Assembly (NCBI GenBank): GCA_012960755.1 | Contig: DUAT01000036.1 | Coordinates: 86,477 to 150,476 of the forward strand | Reading direction: 5' to 3' | Length of the DNA stretch: 64,000 nt | DNA from: Gammaproteobacteria bacterium | GTDB lineage: Bacteria; Pseudomonadota; Gammaproteobacteria; Pseudomonadales; Azotimanducaceae_A | Shown: piece after piece, positions 22,859 to 33,510 of the stretch | Position numbering within the stretch: the stretch's first letter is position 1 | Layout of the letters: the number at the start of each line of letters is the position of its first letter | Made by a program: the position numbers and the translations under genes | Notes under the pieces: model-generated | The model's database searches: none | Seen by the model: only the letters and a program-made list of their open reading frames with translations | Told to the model about the DNA's origin: nothing

Positions 22859-24856
22859 TCAAAGAATATTCTTGAACGCGTTCAGTGAATCCGGGTTTGC
22901 CAGTGCATCCTTGTTGTTTACCGGCCGACCATGGATCACATTACGCACCGCCAACTCCACAATCTTGCCGCTAATAGTCCTGGGAATGTCCGGCACGGCC
23001 AGTATCACGGCTGGAACATGGCGCGGAGTTGTATTCTCCCGAATGGTTAACTTGATTCTGTCGACGAGTTCGTCAGTCAGTGACACCTGCTCTTTCAGTA
23101 CAACAAACAGCACCACCCGAACATCCCCTTGCCAGTCCTGTCCCACGCAAATAGAGTCAGTCACTTCGTCGACTCTTTCAACCTGACGATATATTTCTGC
23201 TGTACCAATCCTCACGCCGCCAGGATTCAGCACCGCGTCTGAGCGACCATAAATAACAAACCCGTTGTTCTCGGTCAGCTCGCCGTAATCACCGTGAGCC
23301 CATACATTATCAAATCGGTCGAAGTAGGCTTTATGGTACTTCTCGCCCGTTTTATCATTCCAAAATCCCACTGGCATGGACGGAAACGTCGACGTGCAGA
23401 CCATTTCGCCTTTTTGCTGCTCTATGGCAACACCTTCGTCATTGAAGATATGGACATCCATACCCAGACCTGCACATTGCAGTTCACCGGCGTAAACCGG
23501 CAGAGCGGGGTTGCCAAGAGTAAAGCAGGAAATGATGTCAGTACCACCGGATATGGACGAGAGACACAGATCTTGCTTTATATCGCGGTAAACGTATTGG
23601 AAACTCTCGTGGCTCAACGGTGAACCGGTTGAAAGAATACAACGAAGGGTGGAAACATCATGGCTACGGGCGGGCGTAACCCCTGCTTTTTCGAGACTGG
23701 CCAGGTATTTAGCACTGGTCCCAAAAACGCTGATCTTCTCTTTTTCCACCAGGTCCATCATCGCATTTTCAGAAGGATAAAACGGTGACCCGTCATAAAG
23801 CACCAGCGTCGCGCCGCTGGCCAACCCTGAGACCAGCCAGTTCCACATCATCCAGCCACAGGTGGTGAAGAAAAACAGCACATCATCCCTCCCCAGATCA
23901 GTATGTAACTGATGTTCTTTCATATGTTGTAACAGGGTCCCACCCGCGCCGTGAACAATACATTTGGGTGTACCGGTCGTGCCGGACGAGTACATAATGT
24001 AAAGCGGATGGTCGAAAGGCAACCTTGTAAACTGGAATTTTTCAGCCTTTTCACCAGACAAATGTGCAGTTGAGATTGCCGAATCAAATGCTGTTAACGT
24101 CGCACGTCCAACCTCGATCCTTGTCTCAAGTGAGGGCAGTAAAGTAACCAGCAGAACCTGCTCAATCGATTCAACCTGGGTAACAATGTTTTCAACACGA
24201 TCTGAGATATCCAGTGTCCTGCCATTGTACTGGTAGCCATTACAGGTCACGAGTACCCGGGGTGTGATCTGTCCAAACCGGTCCAGAATGCCGCTTGCAC
24301 CAAAATCCGGGGAGCAGGATGAAAATGTCGCACCAATACTTGCCGCTGCCAGCATAGTGACGACAGTCTGGGGGAGATTTGGCAGCAGGGCTGCAACCCG
24401 ATCCCCGGGTTTTATGCCTGCATTGAGAAACCAGGTTGCAAGAGATTCAACCTGTTGGCACAACTGAGAGTAACTCAGGGTTTGCCGTGTACCATCCTCC
24501 TGGTAAGAAATGATGGCCAGACGATCATCATCGTAGCGTAACAGGTTTTCTGCAAAATTAAGTTGGGCATTCGGAAACCACTTTGCACCAGGCATCCGGC
24601 TTGCATTTTGCAGAATACTTTCTTCTGAGTGCTCAATTTCTCCCTCAGCTTCTCCTCCTTTTTCTCCCTGTGTTTCTCCTTTATGGCCAATCACTTCACA
24701 GTAGTCCCAGAGTTTTGACCAGAACCGGGTTTTGTTGTGGATACTAAATTCGTGGAGTTGCTGGTAATCCCCATCTACGCCAACGAAATCCTGAAACGCG
24801 GTAATTCGAGCGGCTTTTTTCTGGCGGCTGGTCGGTGACCACAGTGGTTTTCCCAT
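22859..24856 (-). CDS. Acetoacetyl-CoA synthetase (acetoacetate-CoA ligase)
   Basis: 665 residues, an ACS-like adenylating enzyme. The N-terminal domain FQDFVGVDGDYQQLHEFS and WSKLWDYCEV is typical of AacS. The core has MYSSGTTGTPKCIVHGAGG near 285-303, SISGGTDIISCF near 430 and YGRSDAVLNPGGVRIGTAEIY near 545. The C-terminal Lys lies in TISGKIVELAVR. It activates acetoacetate with ATP and CoA. A Gly/Glu/Lys-rich insert (about residues 59-73) near the N-terminus looks like a low-complexity expansion. Convergent with the Nudix gene. Confidence 0.92.
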   Translation of the reverse strand: MGKPLWSPTSRQKKAARITAFQDFVGVDGDYQQLHEFSIHNKTRFWSKLWDYCEVIGHKGETQGEKGGEAEGEIEHSEESILQNASRMPGAKWFPNAQLNFAENLLRYDDDRLAIISYQEDGTRQTLSYSQLCQQVESLATWFLNAGIKPGDRVAALLPNLPQTVVTMLAAASIGATFSSCSPDFGASGILDRFGQITPRVLVTCNGYQYNGRTLDISDRVENIVTQVESIEQVLLVTLLPSLETRIEVGRATLTAFDSAISTAHLSGEKAEKFQFTRLPFDHPLYIMYSSGTTGTPKCIVHGAGGTLLQHMKEHQLHTDLGRDDVLFFFTTCGWMMWNWLVSGLASGATLVLYDGSPFYPSENAMMDLVEKEKISVFGTSAKYLASLEKAGVTPARSHDVSTLRCILSTGSPLSHESFQYVYRDIKQDLCLSSISGGTDIISCFTLGNPALPVYAGELQCAGLGMDVHIFNDEGVAIEQQKGEMVCTSTFPSMPVGFWNDKTGEKYHKAYFDRFDNVWAHGDYGELTENNGFVIYGRSDAVLNPGGVRIGTAEIYRQVERVDEVTDSICVGQDWQGDVRVVLFVVLKEQVSLTDELVDRIKLTIRENTTPRHVPAVILAVPDIPRTISGKIVELAVRNVIHGRPVNNKDALANPDSLNAFKNIL

Positions 24857-24892: not shown

Positions 24893-25255
24893 CTAGTTGA
24901 CACTGACCTTAATCGGCAAATAACTTCCGGGATCCTCCCGGGTGGTTTGGGAGTAAGTCTGACCCTGCCACAAATAATGGACCCGGTACCCTGTGACTGA
25001 GGTCTCCTGTCTGCTCTTTGTTTCGCAATAGCCCACACCCAGATCCCACTCCAACAATGTTACAAGATCCTCAACCTCAGGTTTCCCCGTTCGGCAGTCT
25101 GCGTTCATCACCTTTTTGTGGGTAGTCTGTACGATGGGCACCGCTGAAAGTACTTCAGCCCGTGCAAGAAATTCATCAGCAAGGCAGTGGGTTGACAACC
25201 CCAGGATCGATCCCAGAACCAGTAACACCAAAATCGACCTGCCGTAAATTATCAT
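24893..25255 (-). CDS. Secreted YcfJ-like protein lacking the glycine zipper
   Basis: About 120 residues with a signal peptide (MIIYGRSILVLLVLGSILGL, cleavage near THCLA-DEF). The mature part aligns with the two flanks of the YcfJ-like protein at 30709: ARAEVLSAVPIV, a Cys, then GYCETK, VTGYRVHYLWQGQTYS, and a PGSYLPIKVSV end. The glycine-zipper segment between the flanks is missing. ATG 25255 has AGGAG 7 nt upstream; the frame opens with GTG 25273, which overlaps the transglycosylase stop. Last gene of the caspase/ion-channel cluster. Likely periplasmic or outer-membrane associated; function unknown. Confidence 0.72.
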   Translation of the reverse strand: MIIYGRSILVLLVLGSILGLSTHCLADEFLARAEVLSAVPIVQTTHKKVMNADCRTGKPEVEDLVTLLEWDLGVGYCETKSRQETSVTGYRVHYLWQGQTYSQTTREDPGSYLPIKVSVN

Positions 25256-25269
25256 TGTCATACTCCTTT

Positions 25270-25974
25270 TCACTTTAGGCTGGAACGCAGTTCCGGGATG
25301 AACCTTGCCAGTTTGTAGCGGGTGCTGACGTCAAGCGCAGTAGTATCAAGATACACAGCGGCTTGCCCTTTTTCTGCAGATACAATTTCAAGTACCACAG
25401 TGGGCACCCTGTTCTTGAGCGCCTTCACATAGCCCTCCGCACGACTGATTCGATTGAATTGCATCACCAGCAGCTTTTCTTCAGAAATCGATCCCGCAGA
25501 AGCAGTGCTCATTTGCCGGGCAATCTCCGTCCTGCGTTTTTTTACCTTTCTCACATAACCCGCGACACTGGCGGGAATATCTGCACGGGTTTTTAACCTC
25601 GTTGGGCCATAATTGTAAGCAGCCAGTGTCATGTCCAGATCATCATGGAACTGTTTTGACAAATCTGCCAGATAACCAGCCCCAAGATCTATGTTTAGAC
25701 AAGGGTTGTACAACTCCGCAACTCTGCCAGCCCCGAGGTATTTAGCCGTGAGCGGCCAGCGGATCTGCATCACACCGTGAGCACCGGCTGAAGAACGGGC
25801 ATCCGCATTCCAATTGCTTTCGACGGATGCCACCGCCAGCAGAAGATCCAGTTCTATACTGTGGCTCCTGCTGGCCAATTCAAAACAGTTGATGAAAGGA
25901 AACGAGTCGCTGGCAACTGCTAAACTCAAGGGCTGGCAGCAAAAAAACAGAATACAAATTCGGCGCGCAAACAT
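25270..25974 (-). CDS. Secreted lytic transglycosylase (SLT domain)
   Basis: 234 residues with a signal peptide (about 1-22). The SLT fold spans about 35-150. Catalytic Glu52 lies in LAVASVESNWNADARS, followed by GAHGVMQIRWPLTAKYLG, the Asn/Asp of YNPCLNIDLGAGYLA, and AAYNYGPTRLKTR. It would cut peptidoglycan strands to anhydro-muropeptides in the periplasm. A C-terminal 80-residue extension is of unknown role. It begins 2 nt after the stop of the SPOR-like gene. Within this cluster it is well placed to open the wall for an envelope-spanning complex. Confidence 0.9.
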   Translation of the reverse strand: MFARRICILFFCCQPLSLAVASDSFPFINCFELASRSHSIELDLLLAVASVESNWNADARSSAGAHGVMQIRWPLTAKYLGAGRVAELYNPCLNIDLGAGYLADLSKQFHDDLDMTLAAYNYGPTRLKTRADIPASVAGYVRKVKKRRTEIARQMSTASAGSISEEKLLVMQFNRISRAEGYVKALKNRVPTVVLEIVSAEKGQAAVYLDTTALDVSTRYKLARFIPELRSSLK

Positions 25975-25976
25975 GC

Positions 25977-26561
25977 CTATATCAGCCGCTCTCTGGCCGG
26001 TTGTTCAGACGTAAAACCGGTCATCGTGTTAATGGCTTCCAGGACCTGGATTCGCTCTGGCTGATTCACAAAGTTAAATCCGACTTCGTAGTGCCCTGGT
26101 CCCGTTCGAAGCACCTCAAACTCTGTCTCAAGTTGCAGGGATAGTTTATCTGCAAAACCTTTTGCTGAGGTATGGCTTCGAAACGGTGTCCACACTACCT
26201 GAAACTGCCGCGTATTTTTTTTGGATACACCTGTTGTCGGCACCTCCTGATTCGGTCTGTGCCCAGGGTCCTCGGCAGGTATTGAAATTTCTGGCATTGC
26301 CACTTCAGTGTTGGTAATTACTAATTCAGAGAACGCACTTTCGTCGTCTGCTAACAACCCTTCGGCTTTATCAAGTGCAATATCGACCGTGGTTTTCAGA
26401 TTATGTTCCAGTTCGGCAATGCGTTCGTACGACAGTGGCGGACTGTTCATGGGTTGTACCGATGGTTCAGCGTTGTTCATCACCAGGTTCTTCACATTGT
26501 TGACAGACATTACAACCACACCAACCAACATCCCGACAAATACCCCAATTAAGAATCTCAC
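25977..26561 (-). CDS. Membrane-anchored protein with SPOR-like C-terminal domain
   Basis: 194 residues. The N-terminus RFLIGVFVGMLVGVVVMSV is a single membrane anchor without a cleavage site. A middle region of about 100 residues looks disordered (Glu/Pro-rich). The last 75 residues (FQVVWTPFRSHTSAKGFADK, then LETEFEVLRTGPGHYEVGF) resemble a SPOR fold, which binds denuded glycan strands of septal peptidoglycan. Start is GTG 26561 with GAGGAG upstream. It directly precedes the transglycosylase gene, which fits targeting of that enzyme to denuded glycan. The SPOR call rests on pattern only. Confidence 0.65.
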   Translation of the reverse strand: MRFLIGVFVGMLVGVVVMSVNNVKNLVMNNAEPSVQPMNSPPLSYERIAELEHNLKTTVDIALDKAEGLLADDESAFSELVITNTEVAMPEISIPAEDPGHRPNQEVPTTGVSKKNTRQFQVVWTPFRSHTSAKGFADKLSLQLETEFEVLRTGPGHYEVGFNFVNQPERIQVLEAINTMTGFTSEQPARERLI

Positions 26562-26571
26562 GGCAATCTCC

Positions 26572-27918
26572 TCACATCACGTTGATGTCGTTGCTTGTAC
26601 GAATAAAATGAAGTGACTCCCATGAGACAGGTTGGCTCATATTTTCCAGCGTATTGCGCATTGACACTATCCATTTTGCACTCCCCCGGGGGTGCTTTTC
26701 ACATCTCTTAGCACCTGCAGCCAGTTGTGATTGTAGTGCCAGTGCATCGGATCGATTTTCAACTGCCAACACATAAAACCCGAGCGAAGGTCGATCACTT
26801 TCTGTTCCCCGGGGCACTTTCAGGCCGTATTCAACAACGCCTGGCCGTTGCCTTGACTCCAGTTTGCAATTCAAAGGGACCGCATACCCGTTCCGTGTAA
26901 AGAACGGCATGATATAGGCAGATTGATGAACCCTGAATTTAATATCGACACACTCCGGTCCTTCGCCATGACACTTGTTTCGTTTTGATTCTATTTGGAT
27001 ATCTGAAATCAGGTCAGCCCGTTCCGGTTGTCGGGTGATTCGTCCGGTAGCAGGCCGGCGCTCTGCAAAGACACCGCGTCGCGAGTTGGACAGTGTAACC
27101 TCTGCCAGGCGGATGCCCCGGCTACCTTGCCCGGTTAACAGATCCAAAGCTGCAATGCCCGAAGCCTGATCGGGCGGCAATGTCAGGTTTATAATCGATC
27201 CCGCTGCTTCCCTGTCCAGGCTTGTCAGGGTCCTGTTTAACAGACCTTGCCTGACTTTTCTCAATATCTCCCGTTCCCGGGCATCGTTGCCGGGTACGAA
27301 GTAAATCGGCGCATCTATGGGCAATTGGCATTCCAACTGGGACAACAGCGCCTCACCGATCTCGCTGGTCTGATCGACCGAATAGATGTCCCAATCAGGC
27401 TTGAGGATATTCTTACCGAGGTTTCGCTTCTGATTTTCTGTCAGTCTTCCGGTCCAGTGCTGGGATGTGCCATTGATCCAGATACCTTCCTCCGCATCGA
27501 GCATCGCGAGGCTGACACGATACCTTTGCCCGCCGGATCGCCTGACTTCTATGCCTAGTAAATTCCTGGTCTCAACTGACCTGCAGGCAACTTTGTCGGT
27601 ATACGGGATTCGAACATCAGCACCATCAATCAGATCCTGAGTTAACTGTTGGCGAATCTGGCCACTCAATACATTGCCTGGCGTCACCGGGCGACCATCT
27701 ACCAGCGAAACAATTTTTATCTGCTCACCTTTCAGGCGCGGATGATGATTGAGCAACTTTGTTAGCTCAGGCACTGCTTCGGCCTGGAGCCAAATGCCCA
27801 ATGGCCCGTCGACAAGATCGAGGGCAAACAGCGGTCTACAGAAAAAGAGGAATGCTATCGAGATGGCGAGATTAATTTTGCTGACACAGGGACGGGGAAA
27901 CACAGGTTCAGGTTTCAT
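26572..27918 (-). CDS. Secreted protein with N-terminal LpoB/CsgG-like and C-terminal DUF4384-like regions
   Basis: 448 residues with an N-terminal signal segment (about 15-33, ending LFALDLV). Residues 35-230 recall CsgG/LpoB-type modules: a Leu-rich helix (GQIRQQLTQDLI), strand-rich IEVRRSGGQRYRVSLAMLDAE, and paired segments of SQLEC-type. The C-terminal part (about 310-430; FRVHQSAYIMPFFTRNGYAV) resembles the DUF4384 module often carried with caspase-type peptidases. Both assignments are tentative. It overlaps the ExbD-like gene by 11 nt, so translation is coupled. Probably periplasmic. Confidence 0.55.
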   Translation of the reverse strand: MKPEPVFPRPCVSKINLAISIAFLFFCRPLFALDLVDGPLGIWLQAEAVPELTKLLNHHPRLKGEQIKIVSLVDGRPVTPGNVLSGQIRQQLTQDLIDGADVRIPYTDKVACRSVETRNLLGIEVRRSGGQRYRVSLAMLDAEEGIWINGTSQHWTGRLTENQKRNLGKNILKPDWDIYSVDQTSEIGEALLSQLECQLPIDAPIYFVPGNDAREREILRKVRQGLLNRTLTSLDREAAGSIINLTLPPDQASGIAALDLLTGQGSRGIRLAEVTLSNSRRGVFAERRPATGRITRQPERADLISDIQIESKRNKCHGEGPECVDIKFRVHQSAYIMPFFTRNGYAVPLNCKLESRQRPGVVEYGLKVPRGTESDRPSLGFYVLAVENRSDALALQSQLAAGAKRCEKHPRGSAKWIVSMRNTLENMSQPVSWESLHFIRTSNDINVM

Positions 27919-28636
27919 GGCTCACTGCTCCATCTGCATGAACTATTAGCGACCCACCTGCGATACTGGCGTTAGTGTCATTTGCAAACCCTTCAATCGA
28001 ACGTTGGGTGGCATCCGGCAGAGAAACCAGGAAGACCACATCACCCAGAGTTCCAAAAACACGACGAACCTTCGCTGGTATCGACTCTGGCAACAATTCG
28101 TACAGGGCCCCGGTGGGTTGCATCAATCTGGTATTGAATTCCGGCGTTAGCCCCACAAAGCCGGATTGCGTGCTGGCATAAATGCTGATGTCATTTCTGG
28201 CGATCAAACCAAGAAAAGTTGCATCAGACTCGAATCGCAATGCCAGAGATTTTGGTGTTGGCGTTTCAGAGACGGGTTCAGAGATGGTTTCTGAGATGAT
28301 TTCTGAAATGGGTGCAGCGGAAGCTGGAGTCAGCAGCGTGGGATAACCCGGTATTTTCGCCTCGGCGGTTTTCTCCGGCGGCTCAATCAAAGTAACTACC
28401 GGCTCAACCACGGATTGGACTACGGTCTTTTTAGGCACTGCGGGTTGACTGTTGTCTGGCTTATTGCGGGCCTTGTTTACAATTTCTGGCGTCGCCGTTT
28501 CCGGGTTTAGCTTCTCGAGATTGTCCACCAGGGCCATGATGGAAATAAGGCAAAATGCAATGATCGCCATAAAGCGCATCACATCGGCCTGCAGGCCATC
28601 TGTATCCATCTGGGTACTAGCTGTCAGCCTTGGCAT
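27908..28636 (-). CDS. ExbD/TolR/MotB-like ion-channel partner protein
   Basis: 242 residues. A cytoplasmic stub is followed by one transmembrane helix with the Asp expected of proton-channel stators: GLQADVMRFMAIIAFCLISI (about 14-33), matching the DVM segment that opens the ExbD/TolR helix. A Pro/Glu-rich stretch follows (about 60-130), including a repeated SE-x-x-SE pattern (SEIISETISEPVSET). A folded periplasmic end of about 100 residues has no OmpA-type peptidoglycan motif that I can see. It overlaps the MotA/TolQ-like gene by 13 nt, which indicates a stoichiometric pair. The call depends on the helix motif and the partner. Confidence 0.7.
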   Translation of the reverse strand: MPRLTASTQMDTDGLQADVMRFMAIIAFCLISIMALVDNLEKLNPETATPEIVNKARNKPDNSQPAVPKKTVVQSVVEPVVTLIEPPEKTAEAKIPGYPTLLTPASAAPISEIISETISEPVSETPTPKSLALRFESDATFLGLIARNDISIYASTQSGFVGLTPEFNTRLMQPTGALYELLPESIPAKVRRVFGTLGDVVFLVSLPDATQRSIEGFANDTNASIAGGSLIVHADGAVSHET

Positions 28637-29286
28637 CGCCGGGGCTCCTGTTGAAGAGATGGTTGAACAGATTCGCCGTTAACAAGGGTCGTTACCAACA
28701 ACTCAATACGCGCGAGTCTTTCAAGTGCCACGATAATTTCCTGGCGTTCATGCTGGTGATAGTATTCAGTAAGTTCCGCACCCAACCAGAATGTCTTCGC
28801 CAATCGCATTAAATAGCCACCTATTGCACCGACGATGGTTGTCGTCAGGGCGAGCAGAATGCCACCATCCACGAGTCGTGAGAGGACCTGTCCGGCATCG
28901 ACAATGGCAGATTGAGGGACATCAAGTGTGGTAGACAACGCACTTCTCATTCCGACTGCAGTCCATACAACGCCGATGCCGACAAACAGGTGAATCCAGA
29001 CTTCACTAACCTGGTCAAGTCTCACCACTTGCTTAAAGTCGTTCTTGTCTTCTACCAGTGTCTGCAAACGGGTAAGGTTGGTGGCATAAAATGCCAGCAC
29101 CAGTGCAAACAACCAGACTGAGCTGCCAAGATTCAGGCTTATCCAACTCTGGCCGACGAGAACTGTGTTCACAAGAACTGTGTTTAAAAGAAACGTGTCC
29201 ATATCGAGAGGGATAAAAAACAGGGTTGCAATAACCGCAAGAGTAAAACCGGTTATTGCACCCCCAAAATAGGCCATGAGCGTCAT
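28624..29286 (-). CDS. MotA/TolQ/ExbB-like proton channel protein
   Basis: About 220 residues with four transmembrane segments (about 3-25, 45-67, 87-107 and 130-152 of this start). The last one, GGILLALTTTIVGAIGGYLM, carries the A-x-T-T-x-x-G pattern of the pore-lining helix of ExbB/TolQ/MotA. A cytoplasmic helix (YYHQHERQEIIVALERLARIELL) follows. With the ExbD-like partner it should form an ion-driven stator. ATG 29286 lies 4 nt after the lipoprotein stop. The open frame reaches a TTG at 29331, which would overlap the lipoprotein gene. No tonB, tolA or pal is present, so this is not Tol-Pal or TonB. Confidence 0.75.
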   Translation of the reverse strand: MTLMAYFGGAITGFTLAVIATLFFIPLDMDTFLLNTVLVNTVLVGQSWISLNLGSSVWLFALVLAFYATNLTRLQTLVEDKNDFKQVVRLDQVSEVWIHLFVGIGVVWTAVGMRSALSTTLDVPQSAIVDAGQVLSRLVDGGILLALTTTIVGAIGGYLMRLAKTFWLGAELTEYYHQHERQEIIVALERLARIELLVTTLVNGESVQPSLQQEPRRCQG

Positions 29287-29290
29287 GACC

Positions 29291-29851
29291 CTAGATCCCG
29301 CCTGCGCTGCATGCTCTACATGTTGCCTCAAGTACTATTTCGGCCTCTTTGAGCAGATGGTCCGCACGGTAGTAGCTGCCTGCATCTTCACTGGCCTGCA
29401 TCAAGCCCATTTCCTTGTCCATGAGCTCATTGCTCATATCAGCCAATACCTTGCTTCTGACAGGACATACCTGGGAACAGGTGTTGTAATCTCCCTCAAG
29501 CGATACGAATTTCACATTGAAGTACCGGTTGTAGATTCCTTTGGCCTGTCGTTTGCTGATCGTGCCCTGATCGCTGACCCGCACCAGAAAATCACTAAAC
29601 GTCTTTTTATTCTCTGGGGTGGGATTAGCAATGGCGATATCAATCAAACCGGCTAAATAACTGTCGAAACTGTATTCGCAACCGTTTACCAGTTTGTCTT
29701 CGATGACCCTGGTGGCAGATGCCAGTGGTCCTTTCAGGTTAACGCGACAATCCACGAACGCAGGCGTGGTCTCACAAGCTGAAATGATCGCTAACACGAG
29801 CAGGACGATAAGACTGAATCGTGTTTTGAAGCTTTGCATGATGGTCTTCAT
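29291..29851 (-). CDS. Hypothetical lipoprotein of the caspase/ion-channel cluster
   Basis: 186 residues with a signal peptide and lipobox (LIVLLVLAIISAC, Cys near 26), so it should be lipidated. The mature protein is helical and has seven or more cysteines, including CSQVC and CRAC, which points to disulfides in an oxidising compartment. No known family recognised. Strong ribosome site AGGGGAAT before the ATG. It sits between the helical periplasmic protein and the MotA/TolQ-like protein and is probably a structural part of the same complex. Confidence 0.7.
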   Translation of the reverse strand: MKTIMQSFKTRFSLIVLLVLAIISACETTPAFVDCRVNLKGPLASATRVIEDKLVNGCEYSFDSYLAGLIDIAIANPTPENKKTFSDFLVRVSDQGTISKRQAKGIYNRYFNVKFVSLEGDYNTCSQVCPVRSKVLADMSNELMDKEMGLMQASEDAGSYYRADHLLKEAEIVLEATCRACSAGGI

Positions 29852-29867
29852 AGGATTCCCCTTAAAT

Positions 29868-30689
29868 TCAGATTTCTAACGGACTGACGAATGGTGCATC
29901 GGTCTGAGGCATTGGCGCTGCGGCTATGGGCGACATCAGCGCACTTTCTCCAAACAAAATGGACTTCACCCCATTCACTACCTGGGTCATTTCCGGAGTG
30001 ATATGACCAAAAGACTGGTTCAACTGTTCCATCAACTCAGCACGAGTAATTTCTTCACGGGTAGCGGCAATCATCTGGGAGGCTTCTTCCATATCCAGGT
30101 AGATATCCGACGCGATGACCGCAAGAGATTGGGACGAACCACTACGACGGGTGGCCACCAGGTCATAATATTGCTTGAATCGATCCGAAAGACGAATTCC
30201 GGATCGCCCTCTAAGGGCGATGGCGGGCTGATCATTTTCAGCCTGGGATACGCGGCCTAACAGTGTGTTCTGCAGATCCGAAGGTGTGGACTTTTGCCCC
30301 AGCTCTTCCCGGAGGCGTTTCTCCAGGCCAGTGCGGGTATTGTTAACTGCAGTTTCCATCGCCGGTAACCGCTCCGTCATGTTGCTGAGCATTTCCAGGT
30401 AGGTGGCTCCCAGCTGTTTTGCGATGCGACCGCAACCTGGGTCTTCATCCGCATCGGCACATCTTGATTCTGTATACAGTTGTTGCTGCAAATCCAGTCG
30501 TGCAATAACGTCCTGCAGGCTATTCTCCATTTCTTCAGCCACAGCACCTGTCTCCTTAATATCTTCAAGCACGGTGGTCGGGAATAGCCTCATTACAGGG
30601 CCACTGGCAGCTGCCATTACATTAGCCGCAAACATTGCAGCGATCGCTGCGGGAAGGCCCAATGTGATAATTGTGAGTTTGGTTTTCAT
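29868..30689 (-). CDS. Hypothetical secreted helical protein of the caspase/ion-channel cluster
   Basis: 273 residues. Signal peptide at 1-27 (MKTKLTIITLGLPAAIAAMF, then ANVMAAASG). The mature protein is predominantly helical, with likely coiled coils at about 45-75 and 95-130 (EMLSNMTERLPAMETAV). One Cys pair (SRCADADEDPGC) could form a disulfide. The end is Pro-rich. No family recognised. AAGGAG precedes the ATG. Its position between the YcfJ-like protein and the lipoprotein, with gaps of 16-19 nt, places it in the same transcript. Confidence 0.7.
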   Translation of the reverse strand: MKTKLTIITLGLPAAIAAMFAANVMAAASGPVMRLFPTTVLEDIKETGAVAEEMENSLQDVIARLDLQQQLYTESRCADADEDPGCGRIAKQLGATYLEMLSNMTERLPAMETAVNNTRTGLEKRLREELGQKSTPSDLQNTLLGRVSQAENDQPAIALRGRSGIRLSDRFKQYYDLVATRRSGSSQSLAVIASDIYLDMEEASQMIAATREEITRAELMEQLNQSFGHITPEMTQVVNGVKSILFGESALMSPIAAAPMPQTDAPFVSPLEI

Positions 30690-30708
30690 GTTTCACTCCT
30701 TGTGGGGA

Positions 30709-31353
30709 TTATAGACTGGCGTAGGCCGCGTCTGATTCATCTACAACCGGGGATAGCTCAACCCTGATCCGAACCTGGTCACCGGGATGCTCTGTGGTAG
30801 ATTTAGTAAATTCCCGATCAAGATAGCGGTATGTCACTGCGTAGCCATCGAGCCGCTCAACCGTCTCGACGACATGATTGGTCTCGCAGTGTTCTCGTTG
30901 GGCCGTTTCGAAATAATACTCTTGGTCGTCATCATGATGTTTGTGACCGGAACGTCCGCGGCTACTTGAGCTGTTAGCAATGTGAGCCCCGGAAAATGCT
31001 CCGATTACCGTCATCGCTGTTTTACCCCGGCCGCCGCCAAACTGGCTGCCAATCACACCGCCCACCAACCCGCCAATAAGGGTGGGGAGAAACCGTCGCT
31101 GCTGACGAGACTCCCGATAATGATCATGCCCATCTTGTGTTCTGACACGGCGTCGAACAGGTTCCATGGTGCACTCACGATGGGGTGTGGAAATCCGTTG
31201 TTGACTGATAATGGGCTCGACATCAACCACATCCGCATAGGCGTAGTAGTAGTTTTTATTCTCCTGGGCAAGCACTGTCTGACCCGTAAACCCCAGAATC
31301 AGAACGGCGGTCGCTATAACACTCTGTTTAAAGCTTCGACTGGCAAGACTCAT
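30709..31353 (-). CDS. YcfJ-like glycine zipper 2TM domain protein
   Basis: 214 residues with a signal peptide (cleavage near TVLA-QEN). After YAYADVVDVEPI and an Arg-rich stretch comes a glycine-zipper hairpin (about 92-125: LPTLIGGLVGGVIGSQFGGG, ending GAFSGAHIANS), as in the 17-kDa surface antigen family. The C-terminal YcfJ-type part has REHCETNHVVETVERLDGYA and HPGDQVRIRVEL. Such proteins associate with the outer membrane. GGGAGGA precedes the start. The 156-nt gap to the caspase gene may contain a separate promoter, though I see no convincing one. Its flanks match the small protein at 24893. Confidence 0.85.
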   Translation of the reverse strand: MSLASRSFKQSVIATAVLILGFTGQTVLAQENKNYYYAYADVVDVEPIISQQRISTPHRECTMEPVRRRVRTQDGHDHYRESRQQRRFLPTLIGGLVGGVIGSQFGGGRGKTAMTVIGAFSGAHIANSSSSRGRSGHKHHDDDQEYYFETAQREHCETNHVVETVERLDGYAVTYRYLDREFTKSTTEHPGDQVRIRVELSPVVDESDAAYASL

Positions 31354-31509
31354 CGTATTCCTCCCTGAGATCTTTACTTTCCACGGAAGAATACGTCAGC
31401 GATCTTGAACTGAACCTGAACAAACAAAAGAACGATGTTTATTTGTGACTGACTTTGGAAGGCGTTACTTGTTAGTTACGAAAGAAATCACCTGCAGCTT
31501 GAAGGATTA

Positions 31510-33510
31510 CTAGCGCTTTACGAAAATAAAGTCGCCGCCTTCATCACCGGCGCCCCTGATCTCGCCAAACTGCGGCACCTGGTTCGTGGGACTATTGTTG
31601 ATGACAGCTGTTCTGAAACTCGAGAAGAGTGTTTCAGAGGAGAGATATTTGTTTGGGTTATCACTCAGACGTTTCACCAGATACTGCACGAAGACACTTT
31701 TATCAGGCACCTCTGTCAGTGTCCCGCTGGTCATTGCCTTTCGGCTTGGCAACTTGTAGAGCACATTCGTTGCCGCAGGCGCATCATTAAAGGCTGAGCG
31801 GGTTTTGAAAATACCACCGCTAAAACAGGCATCCGAAACCAGCAAGGTGTGCTTTGTGTTAATGCCCCGTATATAGTCACGAATCGTTCCATTGGGAATC
31901 CAGCTGGAACGTCTGTCTCGCCTTGCATCACTGGGTAACCAGTAACCCTGGGCGAATCTTTCATCCCAGTAGCCATGCCCCGCGTAGAAAATCAGCAAGC
32001 TGTCTTCCGGCTTAATAATGCCGGTAAGCCGATCGAATTCGTCCAGAATTTGCGCCCGGGTTGGGTTGTTTAACTGGCTGACGTTTTTCTCGTCGAAAGT
32101 GTAGCCACCGAGCGTACGCTTCAGGGTGGTTGCGTCACTAACCGGTTGTGACAAGTCGCTGATCGATGGATGGGCATAATCCTGTACCGCAATCAAAAGC
32201 GCATGGTAAGCGCCGGTTCGAATCTGATCCTGAGTCGTCAACGGCCTGGAAGCTTGTTGGCCGGCAGAACGCTCCAGCACAAAAGACTTTGTGGATTGAT
32301 TATTTGAGACATCTATCGCGGTTATGGTGATTGTATTGCTACCGGGTCTTAACAAGATATCTGCAGAAAAATTACCTTGCTCATCAAGGCTGGCTTCACG
32401 GCCATTGACCTCAACTATCGCCACGCCAGAATCATCGGAAGCCTGCCCTGTCACTGTATGTCTCGCCCTGGAAACAACACTTACACCACGCTGCAGATAT
32501 ATCGTTGGACCGGTACTGTCAGCAGGTAATTGATAAGTGGTGCTTATCCTGTTGGAAGAATCCGGGATGATGGGTCGCTGAGCCTTATTTTTTGTAGTGC
32601 TCCCAGAACCCTCGAGCAACGCGCCAATCAGGTCTTCGGTTTTCCTGGCGTCATCCGCCGCAAGTACAGAATCGATAACTTTGGGATGGTTTTCCTCAAG
32701 AAACTGGAGCATATTCGGGTTTATGTAACTTTCCCCTGCCGGTGCATTGATGGATGAAAGATAGTCAGCCCCGGCGGCAGACATATCATTCAACTCTGCA
32801 TTCATATACGCCCGAAGATAGAAATTCAGTGCCGAGGGATTGTCGGATATCTGTTTGGACAGGATCTGCCTTGCCAGGTCTGATCTGTTGTTGTCGTTTA
32901 AGGCTCCCACGATTGAAACGATGGCAATATCACCTTCAGCCCCGATGACTCCAAGACAGGGTGAGAATCGGCTTAGGATGGTTTGCAGATCTGCGCCAGT
33001 ATCCATGAATTTGTCCCCCATACAGTGAGGCCCCGGAGCAAGTGCCTGTACAAGTGGCGAAGCCGTTGCTGCCGCGCTAGCCAGATCAGGGTACATCATG
33101 CTCATCGAGGTTTTTATCTGTGATGCGAGTTTTAGCGGATCAGTTGTCGCTTCGAGGGCTTCACTTTTCTTGATATCCAAAATTGCAGCATCCCGGTTGC
33201 CCAGGCTTTCATTGACCATGGCACGCAGGATGTGGTTCATTGCCGATGGACCCTGGTGAATGCGTTGATCCAACAGCGGTAGTAGTTCTGCCGCTTGTCC
33301 CTTAGCTGTTTTCATCTGAACGAGCATCATCAGGGACATATCACCTTCCATACCCGGCTCATCAATGCAGTTCATCATCAGTTCCATGAGCTTATCCTGG
33401 TCGGCTGTGAATTCACCGGAACGCATGGCCTTAGCAAGGTCACACACTGAATAGGCTGATGGCGACAAGAAAACCAGCAGTAACGAAATAATCGCGATTA
33501 TCTTCTTCAT
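31510..33510 (-). CDS. Exported caspase-like peptidase (C14) with repeat and Ig-like regions
   Basis: 666 residues. A signal peptide (1-21, ending PSAYS) directs export. Residues 25-290 are helical and tetratricopeptide-like. Residues 335-415 look like a bacterial Ig/cadherin-type beta domain (SGVAIVEVNGREASLDEQGN, GSNTITITAIDVSNN). Residues 430-645 are a caspase fold with the catalytic dyad His512 (FYAGHGYWD) and Cys562 (LVSDACFSGG). It should be an active cysteine protease, probably cutting after basic or acidic residues depending on a pocket I cannot assign. Periplasmic location is inferred. It heads the ten-gene envelope cluster and is divergent from the ABC exporter operon. Confidence 0.9.
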   Translation of the reverse strand: MKKIIAIISLLLVFLSPSAYSVCDLAKAMRSGEFTADQDKLMELMMNCIDEPGMEGDMSLMMLVQMKTAKGQAAELLPLLDQRIHQGPSAMNHILRAMVNESLGNRDAAILDIKKSEALEATTDPLKLASQIKTSMSMMYPDLASAAATASPLVQALAPGPHCMGDKFMDTGADLQTILSRFSPCLGVIGAEGDIAIVSIVGALNDNNRSDLARQILSKQISDNPSALNFYLRAYMNAELNDMSAAGADYLSSINAPAGESYINPNMLQFLEENHPKVIDSVLAADDARKTEDLIGALLEGSGSTTKNKAQRPIIPDSSNRISTTYQLPADSTGPTIYLQRGVSVVSRARHTVTGQASDDSGVAIVEVNGREASLDEQGNFSADILLRPGSNTITITAIDVSNNQSTKSFVLERSAGQQASRPLTTQDQIRTGAYHALLIAVQDYAHPSISDLSQPVSDATTLKRTLGGYTFDEKNVSQLNNPTRAQILDEFDRLTGIIKPEDSLLIFYAGHGYWDERFAQGYWLPSDARRDRRSSWIPNGTIRDYIRGINTKHTLLVSDACFSGGIFKTRSAFNDAPAATNVLYKLPSRKAMTSGTLTEVPDKSVFVQYLVKRLSDNPNKYLSSETLFSSFRTAVINNSPTNQVPQFGEIRGAGDEGGDFIFVKR

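Follow-up and report, generated by a model that had tools for sequence, protein, structure and literature searches.

The window analysed here is a stretch of 64,000 nucleotides (nt) from a Gammaproteobacteria bacterium (NCBI GenBank assembly GCA_012960755.1, contig DUAT01000036.1, positions 86,477 to 150,476). From position 33510 down to position 24893 it contains ten open reading frames (ORFs), all on the minus strand and co-directional, as stated in a preliminary description made from the sequence alone. Gene 1 encodes an exported caspase, gene 2 a YcfJ-like glycine-zipper protein and gene 10 a zipper-less YcfJ-like protein; genes 3 to 9 are termed hel, lipo, motA, exbD, g7, spor and slt. 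In gene order, genes 1 to 5 are separated by gaps of 156, 19, 16 and 4 nt, and genes 5 to 10 by overlaps of 13 and 11 nt, gaps of 10 and 2 nt, and an overlap of 4 nt between slt and the last gene, which holds only if the GTG start of the last gene is correct. When the ten proteins are scanned with Pfam, the caspase, glycine-zipper and SLT families are recognised, and the other seven proteins give no match above the cut-off; hel, lipo, motA, exbD and g7 are without a Pfam family in the window copy. Whether the proteins are exported, lipoproteins or membrane proteins was judged by eye, and on this inspection is consistent with the preliminary description. The ten genes were regarded there as a single unit. 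All ten are real, but what recurs in related loci, by more than chance, is a core of seven genes, to which the caspase gene does not belong.

This core module, hel-lipo-motA-exbD-g7-spor-slt, often has a YcfJ-type gene at one or both ends. A gene-5 profile search of bacterial and archaeal genome contigs gives 147 relatives, and gene order was counted for the best 80; counts out of 81 are these 80 module loci and the window. By profile search hel is detected in 77 of the 81 loci, lipo in 79, motA in 81, exbD in 79, g7 in 75, spor in 65 and slt in 64, many of the gaps being due to contig ends. Of the 45 loci that could accommodate the seven genes, 41 contain the complete set, which has the same order and strand in 40; the 41st complete locus (L037) deviates solely by the over-extended ORF start of its SLT gene. 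Of the co-localisation across other genomes that the preliminary description had asked for, that of the MotA/TolQ-like and SLT genes is found, but not that of the caspase gene. Two loci (L070 and L072) show only hel-lipo-motA-exbD, without g7, spor and slt, and this set is a possible minimal core; exbD of L070 enters a masked stretch. The slt gene is undetected in L029, and a separate spor gene in L080. The cluster of L080 is rearranged, the genes ycfJ, regulator, kinase, g7, SLT, hel, lipo, motA and exbD following one another in one direction (L080:2835-11343), and in our reading its SPOR-type anchor is fused to the SLT enzyme. This locus belongs to Candidatus Litorirhabdus singularis IMCC14734, so that the module may be testable in a named strain. 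In L052 motA and exbD lie within one open frame of 544 codons (1119-2753). A YcfJ-type gene precedes hel in 18 of 60 testable loci and follows slt in 30 of 57, and no other flanking family is present in more than 16 of the 81 loci. The seven-gene module is conserved and, as far as literature searches reach, undescribed.

The gap of 156 nt between the caspase gene and the ycfJ gene contains GTTCAGGTTCAGTTCAAG. A PhoP-box-like direct repeat, GTTCAG-N5-GTTCAA, is located at 31405..31421 (minus strand) and faces the module with one mismatch in 12, and a −10 element, TATTCT, is located 11 nt past the box (31388..31393, minus strand). The window contains four other matches to the box with two mismatches and none with fewer. 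For the 18-mer with up to three mismatches, 0.09 matches are expected, and one is found, with none. The module start regions were scanned for GTTCAG-N5-GTTCAG with up to two mismatches in 12 from −350 to +250 nt of the first called start of the module, such starts being uncertain. A box facing the module is found at 60 of 63 testable loci, always in that direction, with at most one mismatch in 34 and none in 11. These regions represent 3.6% of the bases and hold 72 of the 209 box matches. The box-less loci are L022, L037 and L080, the last of which has exact boxes before ycfJ and, as a second one, just upstream of g7 of its rearranged cluster. When all 180 orderings of the letters are scanned as a control, GTTCAG is at the top with 60 loci, followed by its rotations, TTCAGG with 38 and GGTTCA with 26; no ordering other than a rotation exceeds 21, which one of them reaches, and the mean of the other 179 is 3.5. 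Likewise, 60 random permutations match on average at 3.7 of the 63 loci and at most at 38, the latter being the value of the rotation TTCAGG. A stricter form of the box matches at none of 217 loci, and it was the looser scan that revealed the actual spacing.

When 61 promoters, including that of the window, are aligned on the box, both half-sites and a TANNNT hexamer, which begins 11 nt after the box at fixed spacing, are strongly conserved. The conservation is 1.0 bit or less in the spacer inside the box, 0.5 bit or less before the hexamer, and 0.2 bit or less in the flanks, except for 0.7 bit at the base just before the box. Because the flanks around the box and the −10 element are not conserved, relatedness alone is insufficient to explain the conservation of these elements. 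Activator-dependent PhoP promoters have such a layout, in which a box substitutes for the −35 element. The box of the module matches the PhoP-binding consensus of P. aeruginosa, GTTCAGNNNNNRTTCAG, as given in a passage of PMC3156716. A scan of sigma-70-type sites shows no excess (10 against 9.0 expected), and the module promoter is not among its sites; terminator-like sites number 14 against 9.8 expected. Taken together, the promoter sequences support PhoP-type control of the module.

Genes for such a control are located near some of the loci. In six of the 80 loci (L040, L046, L047, L053, L063 and L080) a pair of an OmpR-type regulator and a kinase lies no more than 6 kb from the module; a kinase alone is present in L041 (5.5 kb), and a regulator alone in L070 (0.9 kb) and L066 (7.4 kb). 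The best NCBIfam model is PhoP for four of the five regulators tested, the L040 pair being outside the test, and PhoQ for all three kinases tested. In seven of 19 genomes scanned (G001, G003, G012, G014, G015, G019 and G020) a box precedes ycfJ, which is followed by a response regulator, and this arrangement looks like an autoregulated PhoP unit. Five of the scanned genomes were preselected, G001, G016, G017 and G019 for an exact box at the module and G020 for one near it; owing to this preselection, the proportion of seven in ten exact boxes that lie at the module or next to it in these five is not a fair rate. Fourteen further module-bearing genomes contain 41 box matches, as compared with five for the reversed pattern. 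The contig L219 (1-1517) carries a box, a ycfJ-type gene, a gene for a small exported PepSY-like protein (by eye) and a response regulator gene in this order, and likewise looks like an autoregulated PhoP-type unit. An exact box in L220 (772-1517) precedes a gene for a lipoprotein with a glycine zipper and an OmpA-like part (by eye), which is a candidate for a further member of the same regulon.

Genes 5 and 6 probably encode a channel pair. Gene 5, motA (28624..29286, minus strand), encodes a probable ion-channel A subunit with remote kinship to MotA, TolQ and ZorA. Comparison with homologues indicates that it most likely starts at ATG 29286, rather than at TTG 29331 as first assigned. It has 1866 homologues, and none of the 120 matches listed has a Pfam domain. 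PF01618 (MotA_ExbB) does not match gene 5 in the window; a sequence search of the Protein Data Bank (PDB) with the gene-5 family gives no match. The structural matches of its predicted model often include TolQ, ExbB and ZorA, which suggests a channel fold. In hhalign comparisons gene 5 scores 21.6 against a mixed TolQ/ExbB set (18.3 when shuffled), with the alignment outside its conserved stretches, and 19.2 to 21.7, without shuffles, against ExbB sets. MotA is the only family whose profile scores above the shuffles with an alignment in the conserved stretches of gene 5, and T109 and T150, which are invariant in 34 sequences, lie within the stretches aligned to MotA. The MotA/TolQ-like assignment first given to gene 5 finds no Pfam match, but remote kinship is suggested by the predicted fold and the MotA alignment.

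Gene 6, exbD (27908..28636, minus strand), encodes a protein with a single transmembrane (TM) segment, an Asp at its start, a Pro-rich linker and a C-terminal domain. The Asp is present in 79 of 79 sequences, in 78 by motif and in L062 by eye, with the TM segment placed by eye. A Pfam scan gives no ExbD, TolR or MotB match. In hhalign the score is 15.3 for TolR against a shuffled maximum of 26.1 (n=20), and 10.6 for MotB and 8.3 for the ExbD TM region against shuffled maxima of 16.5 and 13.5 (n=60); the full ExbD profile scores 26.0 against 20.1 for the shuffles (n=20), solely in the C-terminal part. The PDB sequence search with the gene-6 family gives viral capsid proteins (best E 0.035), which are taken as composition matches. 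Gene 6 is therefore ExbD-like in architecture, but not in the profile of its membrane part. The sets of the n=20 comparisons were compiled without eight loci with long ExbB fusions and without L128, L146 and L152; from those of the n=60 comparisons, L205 and L209 (MotA set) and L174 (MotB set) were dropped because all three are in a wrong reading frame, further rows were removed by length filters, and L178 (internal stop), L203 and L211 were never included.

The other core proteins are predicted to be located in the envelope. The protein encoded by hel (29868..30689, minus strand) is exported, appears helical from its sequence and belongs to no known family; its mean column identity is 51% among 25 members, and the PDB sequence search with its family gives the Abl interactor at an E value of 0.26. 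The lipo gene (29291..29851, minus strand) encodes a Cys-rich lipoprotein of no known family, with the lipobox IISAC recognised by eye. The g7 protein (26572..27918, minus strand) is exported and has a C-terminal Ig-like domain and an N-terminal region (residues 38-159) that is possibly LpoB/TolB-N-like. The predicted structure suggests an LpoB-like fold of the latter without proving it, and the PDB sequence search with the gene-7 family gives no match. The assignment as an LpoB/CsgG/DUF4384-like protein is tentative. The spor protein (25977..26561, minus strand) is TM-anchored with a SPOR-like C-terminal domain; only one of 23 relatives reaches Pfam SPOR (E 0.046). The identification of slt (25270..25974, minus strand) as an exported SLT lytic transglycosylase, proposed from the start, is supported by a match to PF01464 at an E value of 2e-22; the ES..MQ motif is found by regular expression in 63 of 65 sequences, and the NCBIfam matches IagB and BB0259 are below the cut-off.

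The two YcfJ-type genes flank this core. Gene 2 (30709..31353, minus strand), which is often, but not always, present, matches PF05433 at an E value of 2e-8, as expected for the glycine-zipper protein first described, and the NCBIfam model PRK11280 with 79.6 bits, below the cut-off of 99. Gene 10 (24893..25273, minus strand), which is often present at the 3' end, matches the same model weakly (E 7e-4) and also below its cut-off, so that its description as a zipper-less YcfJ protein has a match behind it, but a weak one. A gene that appears by eye to encode an acyl-CoA synthetase (22859-24856) has the same orientation and starts 36 nt past gene 10; its co-transcription with the module is conceivable. 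The genes flanking the cluster are metabolic in appearance (by eye).

The record titles of all 80 loci except L052 name Gammaproteobacteria, member taxa of this class, or Proteobacteria/Pseudomonadota at large. L052 is labelled as a Desulfobacterales bin, and mis-binning is possible. When genomes are searched for hel, with the centre genome of the set counted each time, it is found in 4 of the 274 genomes searched in the class, in 19 of 97 in one order, in 3 of 145 in a second order (one of three more distant), and in 2 of 398 in the phylum, of which one is a weak partial match with a stop and is unconvincing. Judged by hel, the distribution of the module is patchy, which may reflect inheritance with many losses or transfer. 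No homologue is confirmed in the viral contigs searched, and the plasmids searched at megablast sensitivity give no near DNA match.

These results are best accounted for, with a probability of roughly 0.55, by a PhoP-type-controlled, probably ion-powered trans-envelope machine for the maintenance of the cell wall and outer membrane under envelope stress. The gene set, the gene order and the promoter box with its −10 element are conserved; ion conduction, the signal sensed, the contacts between partners and the function of the module are inferred. A PhoP-type response regulator would activate the operon through the box in the −35 position under outer-membrane or divalent-cation stress. Genes 5 and 6 would form an ion channel in the inner membrane that works like MotAB, TolQR or ZorAB, and ion flow would move the periplasmic part of the gene 6 protein, so that it engages the helical protein (gene 3) and the outer-membrane lipoprotein (gene 4). 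The LpoB-like protein (gene 7), the SPOR-like anchor (gene 8) and the SLT enzyme (gene 9) would join in, so that peptidoglycan is remodelled and re-tied to the outer membrane. The ion-powered trans-envelope machine of the preliminary description thus survives and is strengthened by synteny across Gammaproteobacteria, but loses its caspase effector.

Several results weigh against this interpretation. For the channel, MotA_ExbB is reached by only two of 34 gene-5 relatives (best E 0.27); Foldseek gives no match to the gene-5 predicted structure at an E value of 0.001 or better; unrelated helical proteins score like TolQ in VIA with the gene-5 model; the hhalign probability for gene 5 is below 5% throughout; and its score against TolQ alone (19.8) is below the shuffled maximum (22.7), with a different stretch aligned. 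Kinship of the gene-6 membrane part to ExbD, TolR or MotB is rejected, the hhalign scores being below the shuffled maxima. For the control, all tested regulators and kinases are below the curated NCBIfam cut-offs for PhoP and PhoQ; the best model for the L080 regulator is a heavy-metal regulator; no regulator/kinase pair is found nearby in 74 of the 80 loci, in the sequence fetched; many of the boxes are degenerate, and no more than 11 of 63 are exact; and of the 30 box matches that were read among the 41 in the 14 further genomes, only four are at or inside the module (one in G014, two in G015, and one in G009 between ycfJ and hel).

The best-surviving alternative is a complex for peptidoglycan remodelling under PhoP-type control, with genes 5 and 6 encoding a membrane scaffold instead of an ion channel. 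The missing sequence kinship of the gene-6 membrane part to known B subunits and the weak kinship of gene 5 fit a scaffold, and peptidoglycan is indicated by three of the seven core genes. However, the Asp that every gene-6 sequence carries where the TM segment begins, the invariant T109 and T150 in the MotA-aligned stretches of gene 5, and the frequency of TolQ, ExbB and ZorA among its structural matches argue for a channel and make the scaffold unlikely. It is slightly less likely still that the module encodes an envelope-spanning assembly or export apparatus, in which SLT would breach the wall to make way for a structure that the channel pair drives. The motor-like pair of genes 5 and 6 suits such an apparatus, and secretion and flagellar systems have SLT enzymes of their own, as the sub-threshold IagB and BB0259 matches recall, but the frequencies of the flanking families given above show no recurrent gene for a partner pore, an ATPase or a substrate beside the module.

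A further alternative is the ion-driven machine with a periplasmic caspase as its effector, as first proposed. The caspase (31510..33510, minus strand) consists of an N-terminal part, an Ig-like (Glucodextran_B) domain and a caspase domain. The C14 fold reported for it is confirmed by a match to PF00656 (E 6e-17, 62.5 bits against a cut-off of 21.4), with the catalytic pair H512/C562 at the positions given earlier, and the Ig-like domain matches PF09136 (E 6e-12). The gene is adjacent to the module on the same strand, and its product is exported. However, single-sequence search, regular expression and a 20-sequence caspase profile detect no caspase gene next to the module at any of the 80 other loci; among the 76 loci with a called hel gene, 52 have at least 3.5 kb upstream, and the rest end at contig ends. 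No C14 match is found in 12 of 20 module-bearing genomes, many of which are metagenome-assembled and possibly incomplete, and matches to the window caspase in 12 of 40 module genomes are at the domain level, with 29-39% identity over the caspase domain, alone or together with the Ig domain. In addition, the caspase gene lies upstream of the module's own promoter, which is located in the 156-nt gap. The caspase is rejected as a module member, and it is very improbable that it is the effector of the machine; to judge from these sequence comparisons, it is probably an accidental, non-conserved neighbour. When the best 7996 candidates by shared words are scored, 14 caspase homologues are found at an E value of 0.001 or better. 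One of them (P0121) is 100% over 94% of the query, and the others cover 39-58%, beside other domains, which we take from accessions and names to be MORN, TPR, WD40 and PDZ. The Ig-plus-C14 domain pair thus recurs with differing partner domains. The PDB sequence search with the caspase gives no match.

Of the two roles first suggested, envelope stress fits the PhoP-type promoter, but the response to phage or competitors is unsupported: with PADLOC at an E value of 0.1, genes 2-10 match no model, those of Zorya included, the caspase matches a generic caspase model only, and the only matches among ten flanking genes are read as a generic ABC-ATPase and Nudix. A Zorya-like anti-phage defence system, for which ZorA among the gene-5 structural matches is the only indication, is hardly credible in view of these results, the lack of confirmed homologues in viral contigs and of near DNA matches in plasmids, the metabolic appearance of the neighbours and the PhoP-type promoter.

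The module may represent a further ion-driven envelope motor beside Mot, Exb/Tol, gliding and Zor, with an unnamed channel pair and two unnamed periplasmic or outer-membrane partners, which would serve marine and sediment Gammaproteobacteria as a dedicated PhoP effector for the repair of ties between the wall and the outer membrane; we regard this larger claim as tentative and as less likely than not. PhoP/PhoQ is a much-studied envelope-stress switch, and a PhoP-controlled, operon-encoded, possibly motor-driven machine was not found in searches of the open-access literature, which also gave no system matching the module gene set. The eye-catching caspase is probably a bystander, and the module joins four themes that are usually studied apart, namely force exerted across the envelope by ion flow, control of wall synthesis of the LpoB type, lytic transglycosylases, and glycine-zipper proteins of the YcfJ/SlyB type. 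A paper on MotAB evolution reports, in the passages available, diverse 'generic ion transporters' of unknown function (PMC12505986), and those of a paper on force transducers report vWA partners (PMC12204202); the module is not described in these passages.

Among known systems, ZorAB of Zorya differs from the module in that the module gives no Zorya match in PADLOC. The PhoP/PhoQ regulon with SlyB/YcfJ-type proteins differs in that no PhoP-controlled operon with the module gene set was found in searches of the open-access literature, and resembles the module in the promoter box with its −10 element and in the location of ycfJ beside PhoP-like regulators. The MotAB/PomAB stators are similar in that the MotA profile exceeds the shuffles in conserved stretches of gene 5, but gene 6 gives no match to an OmpA-type domain, and no flagellar-looking neighbour recurs. 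The Tol-Pal system (TolQRAB-Pal, CpoB and the LpoB-PBP1B link) shares with the module a channel pair, periplasmic proteins, a lipoprotein, the setting of envelope and peptidoglycan, and possibly a TolB-N/LpoB-like fold. However, the module has no Pfam TolQ or ExbD match, its promoter is PhoP-type, and TolA, the TolB propeller and Pal, which a characterised Tol-Pal variant, a possibility raised at the outset, would be expected to encode, are not among the Pfam matches of the ten window proteins; relatives were scanned with Pfam for genes 5 and 8. Finally, all eight module genomes tested contain ordinary MotA_ExbB and ExbD family genes above the cut-off besides the module. This result indicates that the module adds to the ordinary channel systems, rather than replaces them.

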